The position numbers and the translations under genes are program-made. 64,000 nucleotides of DNA from Chitinophaga pinensis DSM 2588. GTDB taxonomy: Bacteria; Bacteroidota; Bacteroidia; Chitinophagales; Chitinophagaceae. This document shows, piece after piece, positions 51,463 to 62,545 of this stretch. The stretch covers positions 5,512,001 to 5,576,000 of the forward strand of contig NC_013132.1 of assembly GCF_000024005.1 (NCBI RefSeq), given 5' to 3'. Under the pieces are notes generated by a model that did no database searches, had not been told where the DNA came from, and was given only the letters and a program-made list of their open reading frames with translations. The first letter of the stretch is position 1. Each line of letters opens with the position of its first letter.

Positions 51463-52305
51463 ATGAGCAAAGCACCGACAAATATCATCAGCATATTAGG
51501 CTGCGGCTGGCTGGGTCTTCCGCTGGCAATCCATCTTGTAAAAGAAGGATATACCGTGAAAGGCTCTGTCACTTCGGAAGATAAAATGGGAGAACTGACA
51601 CAGGCACAGATCCAACCTTATCAGGTCATGATCACTGAAGCCGGTATTGAAAGTAATGACATAGCCGGGTTCCTGGAAAGTGAAATACTGATCATTAATT
51701 TTCCTCCTTCCCGCCGGGAAGACGTCGTGCTCTATCATCAGGCACAGATGGCACACCTCGTGAAAGCGATAGAGAAAAGTCCGGTACAAAAGGTGCTGTT
51801 CATCAGTTCCACCTCCGTCTACCCTGATGTAAACGGAGAAGTATTCGAACATGAAACCGCTACCCCGTCTAAAGGCAGCGGTAAAGCCTTACTGGCTGTT
51901 GAAAAAATGCTGCGTACCAATATCCGTTTTATGACAACGGTGATTCGTTTTGCAGGGCTGATCGGCTACGATCGTATGCCTGGCCGTTTCCTGGCCGGCA
52001 AGAAGAATGTAGAGAACGGTGATGCACCGATCAACGTTATCCACCAGGACGATTGCATCGGTATCCTCACGGGAATTATCCGTCAACAGGCATGGGGCGA
52101 TGTATTCAATGCCTGTACAGATGAACATCCTACACGCAGGGAATATTATACTCAGGCGGCCGCTATCGCCGGACTGGAACTGCCTACATTCGCCGCTACC
52201 GCCGATCCTCATTTCAAAATAATCAACGCAGACAAGATCAAGCAACGACTGAACTATTCATTCAAGTACCCTGATCCTGTCCAATTATTACATACCGGCA
52301 TATGA
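51463..52305 (+). CDS. NAD-dependent epimerase-like protein (YeeZ type)
   Basis: A 280-aa Rossmann protein with SILGCGWLGLPLAIHLVKEG at the start, VLFISSTSVYPDVNG and CIGILTGIIRQQAWGDVFNA. It fits the NAD-dependent epimerase/YeeZ subgroup, whose substrates are unknown. It lies between the NiCoT and cbiX genes and overlaps cbiX by 4 bp, so it belongs to the cobalamin operon; its step in the pathway is not known to me. Confidence 0.82.
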   Translation: MSKAPTNIISILGCGWLGLPLAIHLVKEGYTVKGSVTSEDKMGELTQAQIQPYQVMITEAGIESNDIAGFLESEILIINFPPSRREDVVLYHQAQMAHLVKAIEKSPVQKVLFISSTSVYPDVNGEVFEHETATPSKGSGKALLAVEKMLRTNIRFMTTVIRFAGLIGYDRMPGRFLAGKKNVENGDAPINVIHQDDCIGILTGIIRQQAWGDVFNACTDEHPTRREYYTQAAAIAGLELPTFAATADPHFKIINADKIKQRLNYSFKYPDPVQLLHTGI

Positions 52306-53231
52306 AAGGGATATTAATCTGTGGTCACGGCAGCCGCGATCCTGAAGGAGTCGAAGGCTTTAAAGCACTGGTGGCATTATTGCGCAAACGCTATCCTGAC
52401 AGGATGGTGGATTATGGTTTCCTGGAATTCTCGCACCCCGTATATGCGGCGGCTGTCGAGCGGATGTATGTGGCAGGCATACGGGAGATCATCGCTATTC
52501 CGGCCATCCTCTTTGCCGGTGGCCATGCCAAGAATGATATTCCTTTCGAAATGAATACCCTGCAGTCCCAATATCCGGATTTGCGGATCAGACTGGGCAG
52601 ACATATTGGTATTACGCCTTCCATCCTGCAGCTTGCGGGTAAACTGGTAGCAGCAGCTGAAGCAGCATATCCTTCACTGGACAGACAGGAAGCTTGTCTG
52701 CTACTGGTAGGACGAGGCACCTCCGATCCTGACGCTAACTCAGATGTAGCCAAAATGACGCGTATGCTGGGAGAAGGGTTGGGCTTCGGATTCTCTACCA
52801 CGGCTTTTATCGGCGTAACGCAGCCGCTGCTGAAAGACCACTTACCCATCATCGATCATCTGCCTTATAAAAGAATTGTGGCATTACCCGTGTTCTTATT
52901 CACCGGTGTACTGCTCAAAAAGATCTATTCTCAACTGGAAGAATTCTCCGCAACGACCGGCAAGCAGGTCATCGCTACCAAATCATTTGAATGTGATGAA
53001 CTGCTGTTGCAAACCATAGACGAGCGCATCCGGGAAGTACAGGAAGGTAGTCCGGATATGAATTGTCAGCTGTGCAAATACCGCACACAGATCATAGGTT
53101 TTGAAGAAGAAGTGGGCAAAGAACAGGTCGGTCACCATCTGGCTGTGAAAGGCATCTTATTCGAAGAAGAAGAAAAACCTGGTGAAAAGAAAACCGTTCT
53201 GACAACCGTTAAAAAGATACTCGGCATCTGA
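52302..53231 (+). CDS. cbiX: Sirohydrochlorin cobaltochelatase, long form (CbiX)
   Basis: A 309-aa chelatase with two CbiX-like halves: ICGHGSRDPEGVEGFKAL (first His) and PAILFAGGHAKNDIP (second His), then a second domain starting near VGRGTSDPDANSDVAKM. The tail contains MNCQLCK (residues 253-259), the MxCxxC motif of the iron-sulfur site of long CbiX. It inserts cobalt into sirohydrochlorin, the first step of the early-cobalt route. It overlaps the epimerase gene and is followed by cobI after 3 bp. Confidence 0.92.
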   Translation: MKGILICGHGSRDPEGVEGFKALVALLRKRYPDRMVDYGFLEFSHPVYAAAVERMYVAGIREIIAIPAILFAGGHAKNDIPFEMNTLQSQYPDLRIRLGRHIGITPSILQLAGKLVAAAEAAYPSLDRQEACLLLVGRGTSDPDANSDVAKMTRMLGEGLGFGFSTTAFIGVTQPLLKDHLPIIDHLPYKRIVALPVFLFTGVLLKKIYSQLEEFSATTGKQVIATKSFECDELLLQTIDERIREVQEGSPDMNCQLCKYRTQIIGFEEEVGKEQVGHHLAVKGILFEEEEKPGEKKTVLTTVKKILGI

Positions 53232-60153: not shown

Positions 60154-60849
60154 ATGATTGGATATCTTTTTACAGACTCTTTATTATTGGGCATACAGCA
60201 CTCTTTCGAACCCGACCATATGGCGGCCGTATCCGTGCTGGCATCAGAAAAAGCCAATAATAAGATCAGTCTTTCAAAGCTGATATGGCGCTCTTCACAA
60301 TGGGCTTTAGGACATTCGGTTACGCTGATACTATTCAGTTGCTTTGCGCTGTTATTGAAATCTGCCTTACCGCTGGATCTTTCCGGTTATGCGGAAATGA
60401 TAGTAGGGCCGGTGATGATATGGCTGGGTATCTCTGCCATCCGCAGAAATCATCAGCTCAAGCAGATGATGGCCACACACAAGACCTTTTCAGAGCATGA
60501 ACATATCAACAATGCCCTGCATATCCATGGTAAACAGGGACAGGAAATTGCGATGAATCCATTAAGCCGTTCCTTCTGGGTAGGGATGCTGCATGGACTG
60601 GCCGGAACCGGTGGCGCCTGTGCCGTAGCCCTGATCATGGCCTCCCGTGATACCACAACGGCTATCGGTATCATTGTGTTGCAAAGTATCGGCATTGTCG
60701 CCGCGATGACCACTTACAGCTGTGTACTGGCATTTTCAGTATCCCGGTTTATTGAGCGGAACCAGCTGGCATTTAAATCACTCAACGCAGTTGTAGGACT
60801 GTTTTCCATTGGCATAGGCTGTCTCTGGATCTATAACAGTTTTGCGTAA
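60154..60849 (+). CDS. Cobalt/nickel-type permease (NicO/HupE-like)
   Basis: A 231-aa membrane protein with about six helices. The metal motif LGIQHSFEPDHMAAVSV has the HxxxDH spacing of NicO permeases, and LHGLAGTGGACAVALI is a second conserved block. A His-rich loop (HEHINNALHIHGKQG) may bind metal. It is the second cobalt-type permease in the locus, coupled to cbiD. Confidence 0.85.
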   Translation: MIGYLFTDSLLLGIQHSFEPDHMAAVSVLASEKANNKISLSKLIWRSSQWALGHSVTLILFSCFALLLKSALPLDLSGYAEMIVGPVMIWLGISAIRRNHQLKQMMATHKTFSEHEHINNALHIHGKQGQEIAMNPLSRSFWVGMLHGLAGTGGACAVALIMASRDTTTAIGIIVLQSIGIVAAMTTYSCVLAFSVSRFIERNQLAFKSLNAVVGLFSIGIGCLWIYNSFA

Positions 60850-60860
60850 ATAGCTACCAT

Positions 60861-61805
60861 ATGCAATCATTTCCTTTTACAGCCATATACGCACAGGACG
60901 ACTTCAAACTGGCCCTCATACTCTGTATGATAGAACCGGGCCTTGGAGGTGTACTGGCACTGGGCGACAAAGGCACCGGTAAAACGACGACCGTCAGGGG
61001 ACTCAGTCACCTGATGCAGCATAGTCTGCCCGACTTCCCTTTTGTAAACCTGCCCATAGGCGCTACAGAAGACAGGGTGCTGGGCACCGTTCAACTGGAT
61101 ACCCTGATCAATGACAGGAAGATCGCTATTCAGGCGGGACTACTGGCTACCGCTAATCATGGTATATTGTATATCGACGAGGTCAATCTCCTGAATGATT
61201 ACCTCATGGACATTCTGCTGGATGCTTCCGCCAGTGGTGGTTACCACCTGGAAAGAGATGCGGTGTCTCACTGGTTTGAAAGTAAGTTCTGCCTGGTAGG
61301 TACGATGAATCCGGAGGAAGGCGAACTGCGTCCGCAACTGCTGGACCGCTTCGGACTAAGTGTCACTGTTCATACACCCATGGACCGGACCGACCGTATG
61401 CAGATCGTGAGCCGTCGTTTACAGTTTGATGCCGACATTCCTGCTTTCCTCGCTCAATATGAGGCGGCTGAACAAGAACTTGCAGAAAGGATCGCTACTG
61501 CCAGGGAGCAGGTAAAACAAGTCACATACGACGAAATGATACAGGCAACCATCGCAGATGCCTGTATCGCACATAAAGTGGAAGGCTTACGGGCCGATAT
61601 TCTGTTGCTGAAAGCAGCAAGAGCATATGCGGCTTTCCATCACCGGAAATCCGTCACCACAGACGACGTACATAAAGTGATGCCTTTTGTACTCTCCCAT
61701 CGTTCAAAAAACTATTCTTCATCACAAAATCCTCAGCAGCAAAGAGAGCAGCAGTCTCCCAGGGATGAAAAGGAGGGCGATTCGATAAGGATAAAAATGA
61801 ACTGA
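60861..61805 (+). CDS. chlI: ChlI-type AAA ATPase chelatase subunit
   Basis: A 314-aa AAA+ protein: Walker A GDKGTGKTTTVRGL (residues 35-48), then VNLPIGATEDRVLGT, Walker B GILYIDEVNLLNDYLMDILL and the sensor VGTMNPEEGELRPQLLDRFG. In cobalamin producers it acts as the small chelatase subunit (like CobS). It ends with a Gln-rich linker (SSQNPQQQREQQSPRDEKEG). It is read through to the next frame by a -1 shift if translational frameshifting occurs (next entries). Confidence 0.93.
   Translation: MQSFPFTAIYAQDDFKLALILCMIEPGLGGVLALGDKGTGKTTTVRGLSHLMQHSLPDFPFVNLPIGATEDRVLGTVQLDTLINDRKIAIQAGLLATANHGILYIDEVNLLNDYLMDILLDASASGGYHLERDAVSHWFESKFCLVGTMNPEEGELRPQLLDRFGLSVTVHTPMDRTDRMQIVSRRLQFDADIPAFLAQYEAAEQELAERIATAREQVKQVTYDEMIQATIADACIAHKVEGLRADILLLKAARAYAAFHHRKSVTTDDVHKVMPFVLSHRSKNYSSSQNPQQQREQQSPRDEKEGDSIRIKMN
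61769..61803 (+). other. Candidate programmed -1 frameshift site of chlI/chlD
   Basis: The two frames overlap from 61769 to the chlI stop at 61803. Two possible slip codons are AAG at 61770-61772 (to AAA) and, more likely, AAA at 61794-61796 (ATA AAA ATG, to AAA). An SD-like AAGGAGGG lies at 61770-61777, and hairpins GCAG-TCCG-CTGC and GCAGG-AATA-CCTGC follow at 61815-61838. Frameshifting in chlD genes has been reported elsewhere; here the mechanism is inferred from sequence only. Confidence 0.6.
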
Positions 61806-62545
61806 GTAAACCAGGCAGTCCGCTGCAGGAATACCTGCTACAGGCTTCCAAAACGAACAGTTATGTGCAGCTGAAGGCCAGTCCTGTGAGTACCCGAAAG
61901 GGCGCCACAATCAAAAAGGATAACAGCAAAACAGGCTTTACACAAAGACCTGCTTACGCTCGTTCAACGCCGAAAGTCGCCATATTAAAGACGCTGAAGC
62001 ATTATCTGGCACATGATAAAGTAGAGATTCAGTATAAGCAGGAACAGGCCAAAAACGAATTATATGTTTGTTTCCTGTTAGATTCCAGCGGGTCTATGAT
62101 GAAAGACAAGCAAATTGCTTTTATCAAGGGTCTGGTAGCAACAACGATTGCCAGGTATAAGACCCGGCGTATAAAATATGCAGCAGTCGCCCTGCACAAT
62201 GGTACGGCGCAAATATTATCTGCTCCTACCCTACATGCAGATGAACTACTTCAGACAATTGCGGCACTGAAAACCGGCGGTAAAACGAACATGCAATCCG
62301 GGTTTGTTTTGCTGCATCAGCTGATGAAAACGAATACACAGCAGAAAGCCAGTCTGTACATCTTTACGGATGGTAAGATCAATGCAGGCAATACAGCCAC
62401 TCCTTTTGAAGAAGCCGTCAGGTATTATAAACAGTACCTTTCTGCTATCAGGGAGACGACTGTAGTGGATAATGAGAGCGGTTTTGTGCAATTGGGGAAG
62501 GCAGGAGAATTGGCGGAAGCGATCAAGGCGAAGCTGGTGAAATAA
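61769..62545 (+). CDS. chlD: ChlD-type C-terminal part with VWA domain
   Basis: The frame is open from 61769 to 62545. It reads KGGRFDKDKNELSKPGSPLQ, then EYLLQASKTNSYVQLKASPV, STRKGATIKKDNS and a VWA domain with the MIDAS motif DSSGSM, TGGKTNMQSGF and YIFTDGKINAG. This is the middle and end of a ChlD/CobT-like chelatase subunit. There is no good start codon (first GTG at 61865), and it lies in the -1 frame relative to chlI with an overlap of 37 bp. So it is probably made as a ChlI-VWA fusion by -1 frameshifting. Confidence 0.88.
   Translation, partial: KGGRFDKDKNELSKPGSPLQEYLLQASKTNSYVQLKASPVSTRKGATIKKDNSKTGFTQRPAYARSTPKVAILKTLKHYLAHDKVEIQYKQEQAKNELYVCFLLDSSGSMMKDKQIAFIKGLVATTIARYKTRRIKYAAVALHNGTAQILSAPTLHADELLQTIAALKTGGKTNMQSGFVLLHQLMKTNTQQKASLYIFTDGKINAGNTATPFEEAVRYYKQYLSAIRETTVVDNESGFVQLGKAGELAEAIKAKLVK

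Follow-up and report, generated by a model that had tools for sequence, protein, structure and literature searches.

A conserved internal Shine-Dalgarno-like element in the overlapping chlI-chlD frames of Chitinophaga, and a candidate forward change of frame at their junction

The window analysed here is a stretch of 64,000 nucleotides from the genome of Chitinophaga pinensis DSM 2588, which is a single contig of 9,127,347 bases. The chlI-chlD features described below are on the + strand. A chlI-like ORF at 60861..61805, running from an ATG to a TGA stop at 61803..61805, encodes a small chelatase subunit of 314 residues, which would also form the N-terminal part of a fusion. A chlD-like (VWA) frame, here called D, is open at 61769..62545 in the -1 (equivalently +2) frame relative to chlI, and the two overlap by 37 bp (61769-61805). 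The initial annotation described this overlap and noted the lack of an ATG for the second frame, and reading of the ORFs bears out both points: there is no ATG, GTG or TTG in the D frame upstream of a GTG at 61865..61867, and the place of this first standard start varies among species. Searches with family models match the ChlI part to AAA_lid_2, Mg_chelatase and the N-terminal part of TIGR02442, and the D part to VWA_2 and the C-terminal parts of TIGR02442 and BchD-ChlD. The two frames match the two ends of one model, the putative cobaltochelatase TIGR02442; as neither part is complete, the scores against the TIGR models fall under their whole-protein cut-offs.

The frames sit inside a cobalamin cluster. 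Its genes were named by best family match, some of these under the model cut-offs, and include CobQ, CobD/CbiB, a CbiX/CfbA-like chelatase, CbiL, CbiH-CbiC, CbiE-CbiT, CbiG-CbiF, CbiD and CobU. One CobN was found, 2.4 kb past the end of the window (G000:C1:5578359-5581643), and a search of the genome with ChlI, in which 5 of 15 candidates were scored, gave a single match at E ≤ 1e-60. The CbiX/CfbA-like gene (52302-53228, below the model cut-off) and anaerobic-route CbiD- and CbiG-like genes are near CobN and ChlI-D, and the cluster possibly holds two kinds of cobalt chelatase. It is worth adding that a small ORF just 5' of chlI (60154-60849) has a weak, sub-threshold match to NicO transporters.

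When related genomes are compared, the overlap is kept. D was matched in 26 of the 79 genomes of the genus at E ≤ 1e-15. All 26 have it in the -1 frame, overlapping the last part of chlI; in one of them (L037 of genome G269) the arrangement extends for 81 D codons, as far as a second break. Outside the genus, each of the three nearest homologues (G566, G659 and G721) consists of a single in-frame ORF, and their open frames have 554, 559 and 573 residues. Nine of the ten non-genus loci that were read are single ORFs of 546-669 residues, six of the seven more distant ones having 639-669; the remaining locus, L072 of genome G942, is a distant frame of BchD/ChlD type that stops at 405 residues, in the linker region, and is either a contig fault or another split gene. 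Among 86 ChlI protein hits, from a search whose scoring was confined to the 8000 candidates with most shared words, there is one fused protein, of 547 residues. Wider DNA searches used samples drawn from larger groups, each with its own threshold. They gave only the genome itself for D in a family sample at 1e-20 (1/195), five genomes of the genus and G566 for ChlI in an order sample at 1e-60 (6/396), and the genome itself and nine others for ChlI in a phylum sample (10/395). The protein P0035 found three genomes of the genus in a family sample at 1e-70 (3/394), and P0073 found the genome itself and G659 in a class sample (2/395). A search of genome contigs gave three loci, every one already in the set.

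The loci form clade A (20 loci, 19 of them distinct) and clade B (six loci), giving 25 distinct loci in all. The tree was built from these 25 and from 25 of the 86 ChlI proteins, and its topology was entered by hand for the substitution counts; the order of subclades A1, A2a and A2b is open in the tree, and one resolution was chosen for those counts. Selection on the D frame was examined in 24 loci (L037, L049 and the duplicates L033 and L034 left out), comparing the stretch before a YVQ motif with the VWA part. The two regions have dN/dS values of 0.11 and 0.13 in A1, 0.10 and 0.10 in A2b, and 0.23 and 0.25 in B; in A2a the earlier stretch is saturated, with pN/pS of 0.11 compared to 0.29 in the VWA part. 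Over the whole analysis, 11 of 12 clade-by-region tests gave dN/dS of 0.10-0.36, the twelfth being saturated. The codons ahead of the YVQ motif show a pattern of evolution close to that of the VWA part, and the stretch is therefore translated in the D frame. On the strength of these sequence comparisons, we are confident that chlI and chlD make up one recoded gene that is conserved in these genomes.

The junction was then described codon by codon, taking the AAG and GAG of the Shine-Dalgarno (SD) element as codons c-1 and c0 of the 0 frame, and using d for D-frame codons. The SD-like AAGGAGG is at 61770..61776 (c-1 at 61770-61772 and c0 at 61773-61775), in the sequence AAGGAGGG at 61770-61777. 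The initial annotation had singled it out as a notable element, and it is indeed conserved, AAG and GAG being invariant in all 19 distinct clade A loci. Of the 144 degenerate columns with an invariant residue in these loci, three are codon-invariant, and AAG and GAG are two of the three; both are minority choices in the genes of the window (0.33 and 0.28). In clade B, where 39 of 215 columns are invariant, the divergence is too small for the test to be applied. L049, whose chlI is identical to that of L050, was left out of the counts of codon invariance, re-pairing, folding and substitutions. The consensus is AAG GAG GGN GAN NCG A(T/A)A in clade A, where L052 has GAT in place of GGN, and MGR GGG GAR TNT CAC ACG GMA in the six loci of clade B.

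For clade A, parsimony gives 0, 0, 6, 5, 0 and 0 third-base changes at c-1 to c4. The last codon with free wobble in the 0 frame is c2 (GAT, 61779..61781). The next, c3 (TCG, 61782..61784), is NCG in all 25 distinct loci, and is the sole one of 73 four-fold columns in clade A that has no third-base change (the mean is 5.85), while its first base changed three times. A D-frame TGA is present at d2 in five of the 26 loci (L039, L041, L049/L050 and L052, four distinct sequences), and in 25 of the 26, L037 being the exception, the D frame has no further stop up to 600 nt past the chlI stop, and therefore the switch is downstream of d2. From the wobble pattern and the stops together it follows that reading in the 0 frame ends at c2 or c3, and that D-frame constraint begins at d4 (GAT, 61784..61786). 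The comparison thus places the putative change of frame between c2 (61779-61781) and position 61784. By the phasing of substitutions alone, a +2 shift after c2 and a -1 shift after c3 look alike. As a side observation, Glu at c2 is always encoded by GAG (8/8, in seven A2 loci and L045), compared to a 72% share of GAA among the Glu codons in the genes of the window.

Cognate re-pairing was defined as identity of the first two bases, with third bases that are both purines or both pyrimidines. It was scored for shifts of -4, -1, +2 and +5, the small ones that lead into the D frame, first near the junction and then in all 304 gap-free columns of chlI. At c2, forward re-pairing is found in 24 of the 25 loci, with matched take-off and landing codons as GAN to GAN at +5 (c2 to d4) in 18 of the 19 clade A loci, and as CAC to CAC at +2 in all six loci of clade B. 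The clade A exception is L045, which has GAG and GAT and therefore a third-base mismatch. No other column of the 304 has forward re-pairing in at least 20 of the 25 loci, the second-best result being a -1 shift at c-1 (15 clade A and four clade B loci). The hypothesis was formed on the same data and the criterion set after seeing the junction, and the scan of 304 columns is therefore to be read as a check of specificity rather than as independent support. A +2 slip at c4 (AAA to AAR) is possible in six of the 25 loci, all of them A2. The positions that are frozen also differ by clade, as clade A varies at the third base of c2 and the first base of c3 while clade B keeps CAC ACG in 6/6, which fits each clade's own shift.

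The ChlI protein tails give a wider sample, in which 77 of the 86 were classifiable and nine stayed unclassed; the counts are uncorrected for shared descent. All 19 tails with His at c2 have Thr next, which a +2 slip on CAC AC would require; the 56 with Asp or Glu at c2 continue with Ser, Thr or Pro (Thr in 20), which is compatible with a +5 hop. Against a hop, 11 of the 56 Asp/Glu tails have Asp at c2 and then Lys at c4; this is seen at the protein level only, and if c3 is ACG in these, the Asp-tRNA would land on GAA, a two-base match. Three further Asp tails have Ala, Val or Glu at c4, and two tails have Tyr at c2.

On the basis of these observations, we hypothesise that a share of the ribosomes terminates at 61803, releasing ChlI (314 residues), while others change frame shortly past the internal SD to give a full-length ChlI-D, or medium, subunit, which would probably serve the CobN cobalt chelatase. 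With c2 in the P site, the AAGGAGG 2 nt upstream would pair with the 16S tail and strain the P-site pairing, as in prfB. The peptidyl-tRNA would then re-pair forward, in clade A by +5 between GAN codons (GAT 61779 to GAT 61784 in the window) and in clade B by +2 between CAC codons, and decoding would resume in the D frame. The predicted product of about 559 residues agrees in length with the three nearest homologues that are one ORF. The A-site codon c3 is a sense codon, and the SD is the sole cause of a pause that was found; the SD of clade B is weaker than that of clade A. We consider SD-driven forward slippage or hopping from c2 to be the probable mechanism, by a modest degree, the direction being read from the codon patterns. 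The full proposal, that a cellular gene in a lineage poor in SD-led initiation uses a natural and conserved short hop (+5 on Asp or Glu codons, +2 on His) to make two chelatase subunits, is held more tentatively, as something that may well be so. It is awkward for a forward shift that one signal would act at +5 in one clade and at +2 in another. In addition, only a small number of independent changes lie behind the agreement between c2 and d4 in Asp/Glu codons, which could come from both frames encoding acidic residues.

The use of an internal SD has to be seen against the background of the phylum, whose ribosomes are described as hiding the anti-SD (PMC9976891). Chitinophaga caeni is described as SD-scarce with a conserved CCUCC (PMC10783764), and prfB frameshifting with an SD is reported as common in Bacteroidota, in 523 of 726 cases (PMC8710568). 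A search for 16S rRNA found no match in the genome sequence searched, while the family control was positive in 9 of 14 genomes, and the SD-anti-SD pairing proposed here therefore rests on PMC10783764 and on prfB. The genome's own prfB (L079) has GGGAGG before CTT TGA C and keeps the +1 site, GGGAGGTTTTCTTTGAC. Its GGAGG is separated from CTT by 4 nt, where E. coli has one nucleotide fewer.

The -1 frameshift of dnaX uses an upstream internal SD, a slippery heptamer and a stem-loop. A similar geometry could apply here, with an SD-driven programmed -1 shift while c3 (NCG) or the next codon is in the decoding site, in this case without conserved cognate re-pairing. The distance from GGAG to c3 falls within the 6-17 nt range given for SD-stimulated -1 motifs (PMC4066793), the substitutions are phased as expected if the 0 frame is read to the end of c3 and the D frame from d4 onwards, and -1 is reported as the commoner direction in chlD (PMC9227772). 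However, cognate -1 re-pairing is found in none of the 25 loci at c3 and in none at c4, there is no cognate Z_ZZN motif at either codon, and no conserved stem-loop is seen. We therefore regard a -1 shift at this point as rather unlikely.

A route without any frameshift would be internal initiation or termination-reinitiation, whether SD-led, from a non-AUG codon, or from a standard start downstream. An SD-like element is indeed present, and in public records D is listed as a protein of its own that starts internally. A check of 100 D protein hits for residues upstream of the junction gave no junction codons, most of the proteins beginning inside D; three (P0173, P0184 and P0186) have ChlI-side sequence. 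Four (P0087, P0120, P0140 and P0159) start upstream of a YLLQA-like motif and about a dozen start at it, and some relatives therefore have a usable start there; judging from the protein records, D may have its own start in the relatives represented by these four. Set against this, the first standard start in D is found anywhere from 0 to 80 codons past the chlI stop in the 24 loci, with no conserved place. In A1, ten of the 11 loci have no standard start before the YVQ motif, though the stretch is under purifying selection in the D frame; the other, L040, has a TTG at the chlI stop. In A2 and B, TTG or GTG codons are found within the stretch at positions that differ between loci. A non-AUG start at a fixed distance from the SD was rejected, as the D codon 7 nt from AAGGAGG is GAT or GAA in clade A, and reinitiation at an NTG or NTA codon overlapping the chlI stop was tried across the loci and also rejected. 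Initiation within the gene is thus improbable as the source of D.

A slightly poorer case can be made for a programmed -1 slip of the classical chlD kind. The initial annotation proposed this at AAA 61794-61796, with hairpins downstream; this AAA belongs to an A-run at 61793..61797 and is followed by ATG AAC TGA. The slip is possible on paper in the window, and A_AAA_AAR is a known chlD site (PMC5009743), although A_AAA is the weakest of the Z_ZZN tetramers as ranked in E. coli (PMC4066793). The run is not conserved among related genomes: the cognate A_AAA slip at c7 is available in five of the 25 distinct loci, the remaining 14 clade A loci reading AGA, AGC, AGG, CGC or AAT at that position, and a cognate A_AAG slip at c5 in three of the 25. 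The substitution patterns put the switch 9-14 nt upstream, and the A-run was rejected. Within the SD itself, 15 of the 19 distinct clade A loci allow cognate -1 slippage on A_AAG at c-1, as four of six in clade B do on the aligned G_GGG. This too was rejected, as a ribosome slipping there in L039 or L041 would meet the D-frame TGA at d2, and the four distinct A2b loci lack the slip. Folding of the 25 loci in four windows, with 60 shuffles each, gave mean z-scores of 0.56 upstream, -0.10 around the SD, and -0.75 and -0.52 in the two downstream windows. No conserved stimulatory fold was found in these, and a downstream hairpin as stimulator was rejected; in the window of C. pinensis the fold is weak (z -1.8). 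Individual loci, namely L059 (-5.5 and -3.3) and L041 (-3.5), have unusually stable 60-nt downstream folds, the others being weaker. A slip at either A-rich site is accordingly very unlikely. The earlier reading as a frameshift thus stands in its outline, as one recoded gene with a conserved SD, but is not supported as to the slip at the A-run and the downstream structure.

Decay or mis-sequencing of the gene has in its favour a second break in D in one genome, but is contradicted by the same junction in 26 of 26 carriers, which is therefore neither a sequencing error nor simple decay, and by the dN/dS values, and can hardly be credited. The second break (L033/L037, strain YS-16, with a stop 81 codons after d2) is either real decay or a long-read assembly error.

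The initial annotation rightly pointed to the work of Antonov on chlD frameshifting (2013, 2020 and 2022; PMC3711429, PMC9227772). PMC3711429 describes 23 such fs-chlD genes in six genera, three of which were tested at 63, 40 and 10% and have A runs of 11, 9 and 7. The Chitinophaga gene shares with them the overlapping I and D frames, D at -1, the presence of cobN, the lack of a conserved start for D, and one gene for the small and medium subunits, with no separate small-subunit gene in its own genome. Their sites are A_AAA_AAR or AT-rich runs, with downstream structure (PMC9227772), whereas here there is a frozen SD with forward re-pairing and no conserved run or structure. While fs-chlD itself is known, we propose that the SD and candidate forward-shift signal at the chlI-chlD junction is new. 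No published report of this signal was found at title and abstract level, though Antonov 2020 (msaa081) might list Chitinophaga.

The closest parallel for the proposed forward shift is the +1 shift of prfB, as in AGGAGGUAUCUUUGAC of Flavobacterium johnsoniae (PMC8710568). Both have an SD just 5' of the P-site codon, within about 3 nt: AAGGAGG, 2 nt and GAN in clade A (AT being the two bases in L052), and GGGGAR, 3 nt and CAC, a weaker match, in clade B. The gap from GGAGG to the codon is 2 nt, compared to 3 in prfB and 4 in the genome's own prfB. They differ in that prfB shifts by +1 with a stop in the A site, while chlI-chlD would shift by +5 or +2 on the sense codon NCG. With dnaX it shares the upstream internal SD and, as predicted, two products with a common N-terminus, but it has neither a conserved slippery heptamer (X_XXY_YYZ or Z_ZZN) at the shift point nor a stem-loop. 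Short forward hops of +2, +5 and +6 were reportedly described in E. coli by Weiss in 1987. Those and the bypassing in T4 gene 60 likewise have matched take-off and landing codons, but the present case would be natural and conserved, over 5 or 2 nt, and with no stop after take-off. Hopping is described as much rarer than overlapping re-pairing (PMC5009743).

Programmed frameshifts are usually sought via slippery runs, and a conserved frame change without a run would be missed. A forward shift, if that is what takes place here, would provide a natural example of the short +5/+2 hopping that in review is known mainly from synthetic constructs. Since the anti-SD of Bacteroidota is largely hidden at initiation, a second internal-SD recoding site besides prfB would make its availability testable. 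The comparison also suggests that one strategy for coding two subunits can rest on quite different signals. Elsewhere in Bacteroidota, the ChlI tails of P0070, P0073 and P0083 (from a MAG, Chondrinema and Fulvivirga) end soon after KKK, which at the protein level suggests classical A-run fs-chlD genes.
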